From Rhizobium sullae (GTDB lineage Bacteria > Pseudomonadota > Alphaproteobacteria > Rhizobiales > Rhizobiaceae): 64,000 nucleotides of DNA. Below, piece after piece: positions 7,628 to 40,537 of the stretch. The stretch lies in the NCBI RefSeq assembly GCF_025200715.1, contig NZ_CP104143.1, positions 2,480,001 through 2,544,000 on the forward strand, given 5' to 3'. A program made the position numbers and the translations under genes. The notes below the pieces were generated by a model. It did no database searches and was not told where the DNA came from. It saw only the letters and a program-made list of their open reading frames with translations. Positions within the stretch are counted from its first letter, which is position 1. Each line of letters starts with the position of its first letter.

Positions 7628-8182
7628 TCAGAAGGCAAAAGCCTTCGATGTCAGCGGCGCGGACGTCGCGTCCGGACCGAAATCCGCTTCGCCGGAAATC
7701 TGCAGCAGTTCCTGCAGCCGCTGGCGTGCGCGGTTGACGCGGCTCTTGATGGTGCCAACGGCGCATCCGCAAATCTCCGCGGCCTCTTCATAGGAGAAGC
7801 CCGAGGCACCGACGAGAATGATCGCCTCGCGCTGATCCGGTGGTAGCTGATCGAGCGCCTTCTTGAAATCCTGCAGGTCGAGCGCGCCGTATTGCGCAGG
7901 ATGCATCGCCATGGATTCGGTGAACAGCCCGTCGCTGTCCTGGATCTCGCGGCCGCTCTTGCGCATCTGGCTATAGAGTTCGTTGCGCAGGATCGTGAAG
8001 AGCCAGGCCTTCATGTTGGTGCCCATCTCGAAGTGGTCTTGCTTTGCCCAGGCCTTCATGATGGTGTCCTGCACCAAGTCGTCGGCGCGATCGTGCCGAC
8101 CGATCAACGAGATCGCGAACGCACGCAGGCTCGGTAATGCCGCCAGCAGTTCGCGTTTGAAGCTTGGTTGAGCCTTATCCAT
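7628..8182 (-). CDS. ecfG: General stress ECF sigma factor EcfG (RpoE2-like)
   Basis: This 184-residue ECF sigma factor directs RNA polymerase to GGAAC-N16-CGTT promoters during the general stress response. Region 2 is seen in DDLVQDTIMKAWAK and MKAWLFTILRNELYS; region 4 in LPPDQREAIILVGASGFSYE followed by an HTH with GTIKSRVNRAR. The C-terminal tail after residue 165 is short, as expected. NepR holds it inactive until phosphorylated PhyR captures NepR. I take ATG 8182, with AAGGGCGAG upstream; TTG 8185 is an alternative. It follows nepR by about 10 bases in one operon. Confidence 0.93.
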   Translation of the reverse strand: MDKAQPSFKRELLAALPSLRAFAISLIGRHDRADDLVQDTIMKAWAKQDHFEMGTNMKAWLFTILRNELYSQMRKSGREIQDSDGLFTESMAMHPAQYGALDLQDFKKALDQLPPDQREAIILVGASGFSYEEAAEICGCAVGTIKSRVNRARQRLQELLQISGEADFGPDATSAPLTSKAFAF

Positions 8183-8192
8183 CAACTCGCCC

Positions 8193-8399
8193 TTACTTGG
8201 CCATTTTGGCCGAAGCCATCATCTCGGCCTGGTCCAGCTTCTCGAGCAGATCGAGAAAACGATCGGGGATCGCCTCATCCTGTGCCGCCGCATAGAGCGA
8301 CCGTAGCTTGACGCCGATCTGGTTGTTTGGATCGAGGATATCGCTTGCGCGCATCTCCAGCCGCTGCTGATCCTGTTCTTCTTTTTGCTGCTTTGTCAT
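8193..8399 (-). CDS. nepR: Anti-sigma factor NepR
   Basis: This 68-residue protein has the NepR core (IGVKLRSLYAAAQDEAIPDR, then FLDLLEKLDQAE), which forms the two helices that clamp the EcfG sigma factor. The charged N-terminal tail is typical of the family. In partner switching, phosphorylated PhyR binds NepR and frees EcfG. It is the first gene of a nepR-ecfG operon divergent from phyR. I use ATG 8399; a TTG one codon upstream is possible. Confidence 0.92.
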   Translation of the reverse strand: MTKQQKEEQDQQRLEMRASDILDPNNQIGVKLRSLYAAAQDEAIPDRFLDLLEKLDQAEMMASAKMAK

Positions 8400-8598: not shown

Positions 8599-8623
8599 GG
8601 AACTTTTTTAATGGCGCGACGTT
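8599..8623 (+). promoter_or_regulatory. EcfG-dependent promoter of phyR
   Basis: GGAAC (8599-8603), 16 bases, then CGTT (8620-8623) exactly matches the EcfG consensus. The phyR start codon is 46 bases downstream, so this would give positive feedback of the stress response. Confidence 0.75.
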
Positions 8624-8668: not shown

Positions 8669-9463
8669 ATGACACTTTCTACTCGAATTGCGCCGCATCT
8701 TCCTTATTTGCGTCGTTATTCCCGTGCGCTTACAGGCACGCAGACTTCAGGTGATGCTTATGTTGCCGCAGTTCTGGAGGCCATTATCGCCGACATATCC
8801 ATTTTCCCGGATACCGCGAATGACCGTGTCGCACTCTACAAACTGTTCACTAAGCTGTTTGGTTCCACCGCCGTCCAGATTCCGGAGCCAGCATCGCCCT
8901 ATGCGTGGGAGCAGCGGGCGACCGTAAACCTTGCCAAGGTGTCCCCGCTAGCGCGCCAGGCCTTCATCCTCGCTTCGGTCGAGAATTTCCGCGTCGGCGA
9001 GATCGCCGATATTCTCGACACCGAAGACCAGGAAGTAATGAGCCTGCTCGACAAGGCCTCGCAGGAGATTTCGCGCCAGGTCGCCACCGATATCATGATC
9101 ATCGAAGACGAGCCCCTGATCGCGATGGATATAGAGCAGATGGTCGAAAGCCTCGGCCACAGGGTCACCGGCATCGCCCGCACCCATTCTGAAGCCATAG
9201 CGCTTTACAACAAGACCAAGCCGCGCATGGTTCTTGCGGATATCCAGCTTGCCGACGGCAGCTCGGGCATCGACGCCGTGAACGACATTCTAAAGACATC
9301 GAACGTGCCCGTGATTTTCATCACGGCTTTTCCAGAGCGCCTTTTGACAGGCGAGCGGCCGGAGCCGACTTTCCTGGTCACCAAGCCCTTCAATCCCGAT
9401 ATGGTCAAGGCTTTGATCAGCCAGGCGCTATTCTTCAATGAATCCACCAAGGTTGCAGCATGA
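8669..9463 (+). CDS. phyR: Anti-anti-sigma response regulator PhyR
   Basis: PhyR is a 264-residue response regulator with an inverted layout: a sigma-factor-like domain (about residues 1-125) that mimics EcfG and binds NepR, then a receiver domain (about 140-260). The receiver has an acidic pair in MIIEDEP, the phosphoacceptor Asp191 in VLADIQLADG, and the conserved Lys in LVTKPF. Phosphorylation opens the protein so that it sequesters NepR. It is divergent from nepR-ecfG and followed by a kinase gene that could phosphorylate it. An exact EcfG promoter precedes it. Confidence 0.94.
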   Translation: MTLSTRIAPHLPYLRRYSRALTGTQTSGDAYVAAVLEAIIADISIFPDTANDRVALYKLFTKLFGSTAVQIPEPASPYAWEQRATVNLAKVSPLARQAFILASVENFRVGEIADILDTEDQEVMSLLDKASQEISRQVATDIMIIEDEPLIAMDIEQMVESLGHRVTGIARTHSEAIALYNKTKPRMVLADIQLADGSSGIDAVNDILKTSNVPVIFITAFPERLLTGERPEPTFLVTKPFNPDMVKALISQALFFNESTKVAA

Positions 9464-9483: not shown

Positions 9484-9508
9484 GGAACAAAGCCAATAAC
9501 GAAGCGTT
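9484..9508 (+). promoter_or_regulatory. EcfG-dependent promoter of the stress sensor kinase
   Basis: GGAAC (9484-9488), 16 bases, then CGTT (9505-9508) exactly fits the EcfG consensus and begins 21 bases after the phyR stop codon. A transcript would begin around 9515, which rules out kinase start codons inside the phyR end. Confidence 0.7.
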
Positions 9509-9641: not shown

Positions 9642-10655
9642 GTGAATACGACAGAACCATTAACCGGCAGGCCTTTCGCGCTAGAAGGCAAGTCCGCGAT
9701 GATGGAGCGGGCGCTGAACAGCGCCGGAATTTCGATTCTCTTTCAGGATTCAAAGCTGGCATTCTCCTTTGCCGAAAATCTTCCGCGCCACTTCGCCGAA
9801 CGGTTTTTCGTCGGCGGCAGCGACAGTGATCTCTTCGGCAAGGCGCATGGCGACTACCTGAGGGCCCTGAAGCTCAAGGTGCTGGAAACCGGAACAGCAA
9901 CCAACGCCGAGATCGATATGGACGTCGATGGTGAGGCCCGGACCTACGAGCTCAAGGTCCAGCGCGTCAGCAATGGCAGCTCCCTCGGCATTCTTTCGGT
10001 CATCTCCGAAGTCACCGAAACGCGGCACCGCGAAAAAGTTCTGAAATCGCTGCTGCGCGAACTTTCTCACCGTTCAAAGAACCTGCTCGCGATCATTCAG
10101 GGCATCGCGACGCAAACGGCCCGCAATACGCTGTCGCTCGACAGCTTCCTCGCGAAGTTCCGTGGCCGTCTTCAGTCGCTTTCGAACTCGCAGGACCTGA
10201 TTACGGATTCGAGCTGGCGGGGCGCCTATCTCTTCGATCTCGCGGAAAAGCAGTTCGCCCCCTATTGGCCGGAAACGGCAGGCTCCATGCCGATCTTCGG
10301 CATCAATGCCCATATGACGCCGAATGCCGCCGTACATCTCGGATTGGCGCTTCATGAACTTATCGTCAATTCGGCCTCCTATGGCGCAATCGCCGGCGGC
10401 GCGTCATCGATCACCCTGAACTGCAAGGAAGCTAAGCTGAACGGCAAGAAGGCGATCGAGATCGCCTGGATGGAGATCCTCCCGAATCGGACAGAGATTC
10501 ACGAGTTTAGCGAAAACAGCTTCGGCAAGACCGTGCTGGAGCGCGTCGTTCCGTCCTCGATGAACGGCAAGGCGGAACTCAGGCTCGTCCCCGGCCGCAT
10601 CGAATATTATCTGCAGATCCCCGAGACGGAATTCGAGATTCTCAAACGCTCGTAA
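9642..10655 (+). CDS. HWE/HisKA_2-type sensor histidine kinase of the PhyR pathway
   Basis: With a GTG start at 9642 the product is 337 residues: a divergent PAS-like N-terminal domain (about 20-125), a dimerisation/phosphoacceptor region with His143 in ELSHRSKNLLAIIQGIA, typical of HisKA_2/HWE kinases, and an ATPase domain with an N-box-like HELIVNSASYGA. No membrane segment is visible, so it is cytoplasmic. Its position after phyR suggests it controls PhyR phosphorylation, like PhyK/LovK/RsiC-type kinases. I chose GTG 9642 because GGAAAGG precedes it and an EcfG promoter at 9484-9508 excludes earlier starts; ATG 9570 (361 residues) is the alternative, but its extra segment looks non-coding. 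Confidence 0.8.
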   Translation: MNTTEPLTGRPFALEGKSAMMERALNSAGISILFQDSKLAFSFAENLPRHFAERFFVGGSDSDLFGKAHGDYLRALKLKVLETGTATNAEIDMDVDGEARTYELKVQRVSNGSSLGILSVISEVTETRHREKVLKSLLRELSHRSKNLLAIIQGIATQTARNTLSLDSFLAKFRGRLQSLSNSQDLITDSSWRGAYLFDLAEKQFAPYWPETAGSMPIFGINAHMTPNAAVHLGLALHELIVNSASYGAIAGGASSITLNCKEAKLNGKKAIEIAWMEILPNRTEIHEFSENSFGKTVLERVVPSSMNGKAELRLVPGRIEYYLQIPETEFEILKRS

Positions 10656-10675
10656 GCAGCGCTCTGCTGGCCGCA

Positions 10676-10801
10676 ACGAAAAACAGCCAGTGCGAGGGCG
10701 GCGCACTGGCTGTTTTCACTCATCGGGAGGGGACCGTGAGTAATCCGGATGATGGGTTGGGGGCGCGCATGTTGGGTCGATGCGATCATCATCCAGATGC
10801 C
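10676..10801 (-). ncRNA. Putative EcfG-dependent C-rich sRNA, GsrN-like
   Basis: On the minus strand an exact EcfG promoter (10831-10807) is followed by about 125 bases ending in a strong intrinsic terminator with a T-run. The predicted RNA has an outer 8-bp stem (positions 10794-10787 with 10754-10747) enclosing an inner 5-bp stem and an exposed CGCCCCCAACCC segment, a second 5-bp hairpin (10741-10737 with 10722-10718) whose loop contains CCCCTCCC, and the terminator hairpin. This matches the plan of Caulobacter GsrN, a sigma-T-dependent sRNA with C-rich target-binding loops, homologs of which occur near core stress genes. The length, promoter and loops are seen; identity with GsrN is inferred. 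Confidence 0.65.
10680..10716. terminator. Strong intrinsic terminator (kinase gene and sRNA)
   Basis: A perfect 15-bp stem (10680-10694 with 10702-10716) around a 7-base loop begins with an A-run and ends with a T-run, so it can stop transcription of the kinase gene from the left and of the sRNA from the right. Confidence 0.9.
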
Positions 10802-10806
10802 CCAAT

Positions 10807-10831
10807 AACGACCGCGTTAACCTTTGGTTCC
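10807..10831 (-). promoter_or_regulatory. EcfG-dependent promoter of the putative sRNA
   Basis: On the minus strand GGAAC (10831-10827), 16 bases, then CGTT (10810-10807) exactly fits the EcfG consensus. No credible protein gene lies downstream before the terminator at 10716-10680. Confidence 0.72.
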
Positions 10832-11050
10832 GCCGGTTCCGAAAAAAATTGGATTTTTTGAATCTTTTTTACGAGCTGGGAAGCGCTTGTCCTCATGCAT
10901 GGCGTCTGCTGGGTTCTCCACGTTGCTGCATTAATAACGAAAACAGATACTTATATGACTTTACGTTTCAAAATTTTACCGTTTGATAAAATTTTTATCC
11001 TGAGTTACGCTTTTCCTCACTAGCCGTTTACCAATAATGAGGGAACTTCA
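10832..11050. other. AT-rich region upstream of preTA with an inverted repeat
   Basis: This gene-free stretch is markedly AT-rich. It contains a perfect 9-bp inverted repeat, AAAATTTTA (10970-10978) and TAAAATTTT (10987-10995), with an 8-base spacer. It also has GTTTACCAAT (11026-11035), a 10-base match to the left half of the RutR-like operator at 21075-21090, located 15 bases before the preT start. Either could be an operator for the preTA promoter. I see no gene here. Confidence 0.4.
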
Positions 11051-12412
11051 ATGGAACGACTGGAAACTGGGATTCATGCCGGCCGGCTCTCATCCGCCGA
11101 GTATGAAGCTAATTTTTCCGATCTGCATCCGCGCCTCGACAAGCATGAGGCGCTGGTCGCCGCCGACCGCTGTTACTTCTGCTACGACGCGCCGTGCATG
11201 ACGGCCTGTCCCACCTCCATCGACATTCCGCTCTTCATCCGTCAGATCGCGACCGGCAACCCGATCGGTTCGGCGAAGACGATCTTCGACCAGAACATCC
11301 TGGGCGGCATGTGCGCCCGCGTCTGTCCCACCGAAGATCTCTGCGAGCAGGCATGCGTGCGCAACACGGCAGAGGAAAAACCCGTTGAGATCGGCCGCCT
11401 GCAGCGCTATGCGACGGATACGGCCATGCAGGCAGGCAGGCAGTTCTACACGCGCGCCTCCTCCACCGGAAAGAAGATCGCCGTTGTCGGGGCCGGCCCG
11501 GCCGGCCTTGCCGCCGCTCACCGCCTTGCGGTGAAAGGCCACGAAACCGTCATCTATGACAGCAAGCCGAAATCCGGCGGCCTCAACGAATACGGTATAG
11601 CCACCTACAAGGCAGTTGACGACTTCGCGCAGAAAGAGGTCGATTATGTCCTGTCGATCGGCGGCATCGAAGTCCGCCACGATCAGCAACTTGGCCGCGA
11701 TTTCTCGCTGGCTGATCTTCAATCGCAATATGACGCCGTCTTCCTCGGCATCGGCCTTGCCGGCGTCAATGCGCTGCGCGTCGAGGGCGAGAATTTGCCC
11801 GGAGTGGACGACGCCGTCGATTTCATTGCCTCGCTTCGGCAGGCCATGAACAAGGCGGACGTTCCGGTCGGCCGCCGCGTCGTCGTTCTCGGCGGCGGCA
11901 TGACCGCCATCGATGCGGCCGTACAGGCAAAACTGCTTGGCGCCGAAGAAGTGACGATCTGCTACCGCCGTGGCAAGGAGCACATGAACGCCTCGGAGTT
12001 CGAGCAGGACCTCGCCACCTCCAAAGGCGTCATCATCCGCCACTGGCTGGCGCCGAAGTCCATCCTGTCGAAGGACGGCAAGGTTGCCGCGATCGAGGTG
12101 GAATATACTAAGCTCGCCGACGGCCGTCTCGTCACGACCGGAGAAACCGGTGCCATCGCCGCCGATCAGATTTTCAAGGCGATCGGCCAGACCTTCGAAG
12201 CGTCCGGTCTCGGCTCGCTGCGCATGGAATCCGGCCGCATCGCCATCGACAGCGAAGGCCGCACGTCGCTCGACGGCGTCTGGGCCGGTGGCGACTGCGT
12301 TTTCGGTGGTGATGACCTCACCGTCTCGGCTGTCGCGCAGGGCCGCGATGCCGCCGAATCCATCAACCGTACGCTCGCTGCCGGTGCGCAGCCAACCGTC
12401 GCCGTCGCGTGA
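11051..12412 (+). CDS. preT: NAD-dependent dihydropyrimidine dehydrogenase subunit PreT
   Basis: PreT takes electrons from NAD(P)H through FAD and iron-sulfur clusters to PreA, which reduces uracil and thymine. The 453-residue protein has an N-terminal cluster domain with Cys at 41, 44, 49, 53 and 88, 92, 98, 102, then an FAD-binding motif GAGPAGLAAAHRL, an NAD-binding VVLGGGMTAIDAA, and a C-terminal FAD segment GVWAGGDCVFGGDD. The architecture matches the small subunit of glutamate synthase-like oxidoreductases. GAGGGAAC precedes the ATG. preA follows 12 bases downstream. Confidence 0.92.
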   Translation: MERLETGIHAGRLSSAEYEANFSDLHPRLDKHEALVAADRCYFCYDAPCMTACPTSIDIPLFIRQIATGNPIGSAKTIFDQNILGGMCARVCPTEDLCEQACVRNTAEEKPVEIGRLQRYATDTAMQAGRQFYTRASSTGKKIAVVGAGPAGLAAAHRLAVKGHETVIYDSKPKSGGLNEYGIATYKAVDDFAQKEVDYVLSIGGIEVRHDQQLGRDFSLADLQSQYDAVFLGIGLAGVNALRVEGENLPGVDDAVDFIASLRQAMNKADVPVGRRVVVLGGGMTAIDAAVQAKLLGAEEVTICYRRGKEHMNASEFEQDLATSKGVIIRHWLAPKSILSKDGKVAAIEVEYTKLADGRLVTTGETGAIAADQIFKAIGQTFEASGLGSLRMESGRIAIDSEGRTSLDGVWAGGDCVFGGDDLTVSAVAQGRDAAESINRTLAAGAQPTVAVA

Positions 12413-38824: not shown

Positions 38825-40537
38825 TCAGAACAGGAAATAACGCTGCGCCATCGGCAGCACGGTTGCCGGTTCGCAGGTAAGCAGTTCGCCGTCGGCGCGC
38901 ACCTCGTAGGTCTCCGGATCGACCTCGATATGCGGCGTGAGGCTGTTGTGGATCATCGACGCCTTGGAGATGCCGCCGCGGGTATTCTTGACCGCGACGA
39001 GCTTCTTGGCGACGCCGAGCTTGGCCTTCAGCCCAGCGTCGAGCGACGCCTGCGAAACGAAAGTGACGGATGAGTTGGTCAAGCTCTTGCCGTATGAGGC
39101 AAACATCGGTCGGTAATGCACCGGCTGCGGTGTCGGGATTGAGGCATTCGGATCGCCCATAGGTGCTGCGGCGATCGAACCGCCGAGCAGCACCATGTCC
39201 GGCTTCACGCCGAAGAAGGCCGGATTCCAGATGACGAGGTCCGCGCGCTTGCCGACTTCGACGGAGCCGATCTCATGAGAAAGGCCGTGCGCAATCGCCG
39301 GGTTGATCGTGTATTTGGCGATGTAACGGCGGACGCGGAAATTGTCATTGTCGCCCTTCTCTTCCTTCAAGCGTCCGCGCTGGCGCTTCATCTTGTCGGC
39401 CGTCTGCCAGGTGCGGATCGCCACCTCGCCGACACGGCCCATGGCCTGGCTGTCCGACGAGATGATCGAGAAGGCGCCGATATCGTGGAGAATGTCTTCC
39501 GCCGCGATCGTCTCTTTGCGGATGCGGCTCTCGGCAAAAGCGATGTCTTCCGGGATCGACGGCGAAAGATGATGGCAGACCATCAGCATGTCGAGGTGCT
39601 CGGCGATCGTGTTGACCGTGTAGGGCCGTGTCGGGTTCGTCGACGACGGAATGACGTTCGCCTGACCGCAGATCTTGATGATGTCCGGCGCGTGGCCGCC
39701 GCCTGCGCCTTCCGTGTGGAAGGCATGGATCGTGCGGCCCCTGATGGCGCCGATCGTATCCTCGACGAAGCCGCTCTCGTTCAACGTGTCGGTGTGGATC
39801 ATCACCTGCACGTCGTACTGATCGGCAACCGTCAGGCAGCAGTCGATCGCGCCCGGCGTCGTGCCCCAGTCCTCGTGCAGCTTCAGCGAGGTGGCGCCGG
39901 CGAGCACCATTTCCTCAAGCGCGCCGGGCAGCGAGGCATTGCCCTTGCCGGCGAAGGCGAGGTTCATCGGAAACGCGTCGGCCGCCTCGATCATCCGGGC
40001 GAGGTGCCACGGGCCTGGCGTGCAGGTCGTCGCCAGCGTACCATGAGCGGGGCCGGTGCCGCCGCCGAGCATGCAAGTAAGCCCGCTCATCAGCGCTTCC
40101 TCGATCTGCTGCGGGCAGATGAAATGGATGTGGCAGTCCATCCCGCCGGCTGTCACGATCTTGCCCTCGCCCGCGATCGCTTCGGTGCCCGGACCGACGA
40201 TGATGTTGACGCCCGGCTGGGTGTCCGGATTGCCGGCCTTGCCGATCGCGACGATCCGTCCGTCCTTGAGGCCGATATCGGCCTTCACGATGCCGGTATG
40301 ATCGACGATCACCGCATTGGTGATGACGGTATCGACCGCCCCGTTGGCGCGCGTCACCTGGCTCTGCCCCATGCCGTCGCGGATTACCTTGCCGCCGCCG
40401 AACTTCACCTCTTCACCGTAGGTGGTGAAATCCTTTTCGACCTCGATGAAAAGCTCGGTATCGGCAAGCCGGACCTTGTCGCCGATGGTCGGACCAAACA
40501 TGCTGGCATAGGCAGCGCGGGAAATCTTGTGGGGCAT
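38825..40537 (-). CDS. ureC: Urease alpha subunit UreC
   Basis: UreC is the catalytic subunit that hydrolyses urea to ammonia and carbamate at a dinickel site. In the 570-residue protein, His136 and His138 (DCHIHF) and the carbamylated Lys219 (SLKLHEDWG) are metal ligands, with further His in [15 protein letters not shown] and [16 protein letters not shown] covering the mobile flap. All standard active-site segments are intact and the length is normal. It lies after a sugar-transferase-like urease-operon gene, 3 bases downstream. Confidence 0.96.

Follow-up and report, generated by a model that had tools for sequence, protein, structure and literature searches.

A small RNA gene in the general stress locus of Rhizobium sullae

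The window analyzed here, a 64,000-nucleotide stretch of Rhizobium sullae DNA, carries genes for the sigma factor EcfG, the anti-sigma factor NepR, the response regulator PhyR and an HWE histidine kinase around a predicted small RNA. To judge from the domains of the encoded proteins, this gene set is the standard general stress locus. The RNA sits between the kinase gene (stop at 10655), which converges on it, and a pydA-type gene (start at 11051). The features of the locus, in window coordinates, are as follows.

7628..8185, minus strand: ecfG, general stress sigma factor (Pfam sigma-70 regions 2 and 4)
8193..8399, minus strand: nepR, anti-sigma factor (Pfam NepR)
8669..9463, plus strand: phyR, anti-anti-sigma response regulator (Pfam PhyR domains and receiver)
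9642..10655, plus strand: HWE histidine kinase in the tcrY position, convergent with the small RNA (Pfam HWE_HK)
10676..10801, minus strand: predicted small RNA of about 125 nt, with the start estimated from the promoter and the end from the terminator (fold and homologs)
10679..10716, minus strand: terminator, a 15-bp stem with loop CCGCCCU, followed by a U-run (fold)
10718..10741, minus strand: hairpin 3, ACUCACGGUCCCCUCCCGRUGAGU, with loop UCCCCUC (conservation in 37 loci and fold)
10743..10798, minus strand: 5′ domain, a 12-bp stem around a small hairpin and the unpaired C-rich CGCCCCCAACC (fold and covariation)
10807..10831, minus strand: EcfG-type promoter GGAAC-N16-CGTT (motif scan and genus conservation)

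The RNA from 10801 to 10676 folds with a predicted energy of -53.0 kcal/mol (z -6.2), and none of 200 shuffled sequences was equally stable. Its 5′ half carries an exposed C-rich loop; in the clade formed by loci L033-L038 this loop is reduced to GCCC. The first-pass annotation of this DNA had described a 15-bp intrinsic terminator with a T-run and two exposed C-rich parts. The terminator is borne out, as its stem and U-run are seen in both the fold and the alignment, although a consensus scan of 10400-11100 reported no terminator. Of the two C-rich parts, CGCCCCCAACC is indeed unpaired in the fold, whereas CCCCUCCC is partly paired, its final Cs being engaged with GG so that the 7-nt loop UCCCCUC remains. 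Read on the plus strand (10678-10716), the terminator can serve the kinase transcript as well, and the models of the RNA match it on both strands.

The promoter and its conservation

An exact GGAAC-N16-CGTT promoter had been claimed on the minus strand at 10831-10807, and it is present there; the consensus scan of 10400-11100 reported no sigma-70 promoter. By itself the motif is weak evidence, because the pattern is found five times in the 64-kb window against 1.64 expected, and three of 100 shuffled sequences also reach five. Unlike the motif count alone, the conservation of the promoter in the genus is strong evidence. In the genus alignment GGAAC is kept in 37 of 37 loci and CGTT in 33, with AGTT in the other four, while none of the 16 mid-spacer columns is invariant across the 37 loci.

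Two further exact EcfG-type promoters lie in the locus, one ahead of phyR (8599-8623, plus strand) and the other between phyR and the kinase gene (9484-9508, plus strand). Nearly every genus locus listed has an EcfG-type promoter at the place matching the latter, and this recurrence suggests a stress promoter dedicated to the kinase.

Conservation and covariation of the RNA

By BLAST, the stretch was found in all 37 genomes of the genus, the present one included, and in none of 24 genomes from other families of the order. Alignment with relatives, to which the first-pass annotation had looked for support, thus shows the RNA kept in every congeneric genome. The emphasis then placed on the 5′ C-rich stretch has to be shifted, since the most conserved element is instead hairpin 3, with 23 of 24 columns invariant and a mean pairwise identity of 97.9% over the 37 genus loci. 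These loci were located for the measurement through a 15-base motif inside hairpin 3, which was found in all 37 BLAST-located loci, none being dropped. For comparison, identity in the flanks was 31% over 150 bases upstream and 52% over 200 bases downstream.

Covariation was assessed in a genus alignment (A1; 37 sequences, 32 distinct) and in a wider alignment (A4; 37 sequences). In A1, 11 of 38 pairs showed a change on both sides, a count reached by none of 500 shuffles; seven of these lay in stem 1, where compensatory changes affect 7 of the 12 pairs. The number of further pair types in A1 was no better than in shuffles (186 of 500). Because hairpin 3 is invariant in the genus, A1 is uninformative for or against its pairing. 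In A4, both sides had changed in 22 of 34 pairs, which again none of 500 shuffles reached; hairpin 2, hairpin 3 and the terminator were paired in about 95% of cells, and stem 1 in only 55%. We take the element to be a real, conserved small RNA, which is expected to be made when the general stress programme switches on.

Distribution across genomes

PhyR similarity yielded 80 named loci, the best 80 of 554 confirmed. Model R1 scored above 70 bits in 75 of these 80, including R. johnstonii 3841 (L052) and R. phaseoli (L072). Three Ensifer/Sinorhizobium loci reached 24-35 bits, directly behind phyR, and R1 had no match in two of the 80 loci, one of which (L112) is cut within the kinase. Weak R1 matches were also seen behind ecfG in some of the named loci. 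In each of the 30 best loci that R1 found in the family (8 from the genus and 22 from outside it), phyR (27 loci) or a phyR-type kinase (3 loci) lay within 1.5 kb. One Rhizobium contig (L116) carries ecfG, nepR and phyR, with no match nearby to the kinase, pydA or the small RNA, and may be either a mixed assembly or an additional stress locus.

The covariance model R2 matched 72 of 388 genomes in the family sample at E≤0.001. Scores of at least 62 bits were obtained in 58 of the 388, representing 14 of 109 genera, and the other matches stayed below 37 bits; the sequences from which R2 was built overlap some of the genomes later matched, so that those matches are partly circular. The order sample (397 genomes) gave seven matches above 60 bits, all within the same family, and the sole matches in the class sample (240 genomes) were the present genome and one at 29.5 bits. 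At 18 weak loci outside the family (L151-L165 and L168-L170), the stress proteins had no tblastn match, and a check for EcfG-type promoters, unreliable for the cut loci L151 and L159, reported none; these loci were dropped as chance matches or terminators. At its thresholds, Rfam returned no family matching the RNA.

Correspondence to ReC64 of Rhizobium etli

An RNA of R. etli CFN42, ReC64, was reported in 2010 from tiling-array and Northern detection (PMC2881028). It lies downstream of the phyR-kinase genes and was reported as conserved in R. leguminosarum 3841 (PMC3892343). According to the same 2013 study, ReC64 is lower in ecfG mutants, its start by 5′ RACE agrees with the EcfG1 promoter, its reporter loses all expression when ecfG1 is missing and keeps 82% of the wild-type level when ecfG2 is, and its promoter is activated in E. 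coli by both sigma factors (PMC3892343). Saline shock has also been reported to raise ReC64, in a study that predicted SigA and RpoH promoters for it (PMC4167512). The present RNA is likewise intergenic, downstream of the phyR and kinase genes, preceded by an EcfG promoter and found in the same genus, and strain 3841 (L052), the reported carrier of ReC64, has the present RNA at 150.7 bits. We infer orthology from position, promoter and carrier species rather than from an alignment with CFN42. The transcript, its start site and its EcfG dependence are published for ReC64 and are predicted for the R. sullae RNA.

The two differ in length: the published ReC64 has 88 nt (PMC3892343), and in R. sullae the stretch between promoter and terminator end measures about 125 nt. 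This difference would be eased if ReC64 is processed, a conjecture suggested by Caulobacter GsrN, which is cleaved to a stable 5′ isoform while Hfq protects the full-length RNA (PMC5869019). The Northern blot of ReC64 showed an additional larger band, left unexplained in the available text (PMC2881028), which by the same conjecture might be the full-length form.

The proposal of an EcfG-driven, C-rich small RNA beside the stress locus is upheld by the conservation described above together with the accessible published work on ReC64. Its description as unannotated may hold for the present sequence, but both the RNA and the GsrN idea were already in print. Since ReC64 is known and kinship with GsrN has already been proposed, the present RNA is a further example of a known RNA.

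Search for targets

Exact complements of the hairpin-3 loop occur at 26 ribosome-binding sites in the present genome, versus 3 for a backward control, and at 121 versus 24 in four relatives. After removal of three overlapping rows, 144 of these loci were read, two of which repeat a site, and frames of at least 60 aa were present at 77. DUF934 and ggt recur among the complementary loci in three of the five genomes. DUF934 was rejected as a target, with a mean z of 0.07 and three of 30 leaders below -1.64 (30 orthologs among the matches listed). For ggt, the leaders of 30 listed orthologs gave a mean z of -1.70 against loop 3, without a matched control motif, and 15 of the 30 fell below -1.64. 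GAGGGG occurs no more than 30 bases before the ggt start in 18 of the 30 orthologs listed, a set in which at least one start (L394) was mis-picked. Because ggt was chosen for its motif without a matched control, and strong Shine-Dalgarno sites score on their own, we treat ggt as a candidate target and a lead only. No target of ReC64 was found in the literature searched, outside which most subscription papers lie.

The leaders of the stress genes themselves gave little in favor of autoregulation. Mean z was -0.50 for nepR, -0.35 for phyR, -0.15 for the kinase and -0.12 for pydA, and 16 of 76, 12 of 80, 3 of 76 and 0 of 75 leaders, respectively, fell below -1.64. Among the examples listed, the low-z cases of nepR and phyR cluster in related species.

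The test of katG covered 30 of 36 genomes with a katG match and revealed no conserved complementary site in the leaders, with p<0.05 in three of 30 for each loop; the loop-1 segment included stem letters, so that half of the test is coarse. The katG leader of the present genome gave p values of 0.19 and 0.67 for the two loops. In about ten related katG leaders, AGGGAGAG-type stretches recur near -70; the loop-3 p values of these leaders are 0.04-0.19, two of them below 0.05. As a conserved target, katG is thus unsupported in these 30 genomes.

Mode of action and alternative explanations

We consider it likely that this RNA is the ReC64 ortholog, a trans-acting RNA of about 125 nt that would be transcribed by EcfG under stress and would pair through its CU-rich loops with G-rich sites in mRNAs. 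Stress would free EcfG from NepR, and EcfG would then transcribe the RNA, whose folded domains would expose CU-rich stretches resembling the anti-Shine-Dalgarno sequence. Through them the RNA could base-pair with certain mRNAs, at a G-rich ribosome-binding site or leader, and the pairing would alter the translation or stability of those targets. Because the C-rich stretches imitate the anti-Shine-Dalgarno sequence, the likeliest action would be pairing at G-rich ribosome-binding sites. Promoter, fold, conservation, covariation and synteny were computed here; base pairing, the choice of targets and the direction of regulation are all inferred.

Within Rhizobium, target recognition probably depends chiefly on hairpin 3, which is nearly invariant. 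More tentatively, we suggest that the Rhizobium stress RNA could be a multi-loop anti-Shine-Dalgarno regulator in which hairpin 3, and not the 5′ loop, is the chief reader, and whose targets would differ from those of GsrN and include, for example, ggt in place of katG. Although the general stress response occurs widely among Alphaproteobacteria, Caulobacter is the one case within the searchable literature in which its RNA layer has been dissected. A covariation-backed family that spans 14 genera and has a single near-invariant loop points to sites for mutation and to target hunting in rhizobia.

A different reading, which we regard as unlikely, is that the RNA is a true GsrN, sharing a common ancestor with the Caulobacter RNA and acting chiefly by activating katG through its 5′ C-rich loop. 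Such kinship has been put forward in print by Tien et al. in 2018, who proposed that rhizobial RNAs bearing a 5′ C-rich loop at the same position are homologues of GsrN, and predicted GsrN-like RNAs in R. etli, S. meliloti, B. abortus and A. radiobacter (PMC5869019). The grounds given in the available text are the same as here, namely promoter, position and a 5′ C-rich loop, and the RNAs are likened to ours by description. GsrN of Caulobacter crescentus is made by an EcfG-type sigma factor, as the conserved promoter predicts for the present RNA, and likewise has a 5′ C-rich stretch and a terminator hairpin, and its homologues usually lie near the stress locus, as does the RNA described here (PMC5869019). 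However, the most conserved part of GsrN in Caulobacteraceae is reported to be the 5′ loop (PMC5869019), in contrast to hairpin 3 here, and the katG site is not conserved, with just three of 30 leaders reaching p<0.05 for either loop. Furthermore, the covariance model found no convincing match beyond the family among the 397 order and 240 class genomes, samples in which the inclusion of Caulobacteraceae is uncertain. The analogy with GsrN drawn in the first-pass annotation is partly supported: position, promoter and C-rich loops fit, with GsrN set beside the RNA by description, but the katG target does not appear to transfer.

It is very unlikely that the transcript is a cis-acting antisense RNA or a convergent terminator that controls the kinase mRNA only. 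The RNA converges with the kinase gene and has a two-way terminator in common with it, yet it stops short of the kinase stop codon, is preceded by a conserved promoter of its own, and is kept where the kinase has no match at its place, as in L117-L119, L131, L134, L147 and L149, in which it comes after phyR. That the RNA encodes a small protein is hardly credible, since the overlapping 61-aa frame (10607-10792), which begins inside the RNA in the window, is not conserved, the position of the ATG, the frame and its length vary over the 37 A4 sequences with many early stops, and the base changes are compensatory for stems, in agreement with the earlier view that no plausible protein lies in the RNA.

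Elsewhere in the window, the Rfam family RF02514 (5_ureB_sRNA) matches 40096-40384 on the plus strand at 102 bits; this family may simply track the ureB gene.
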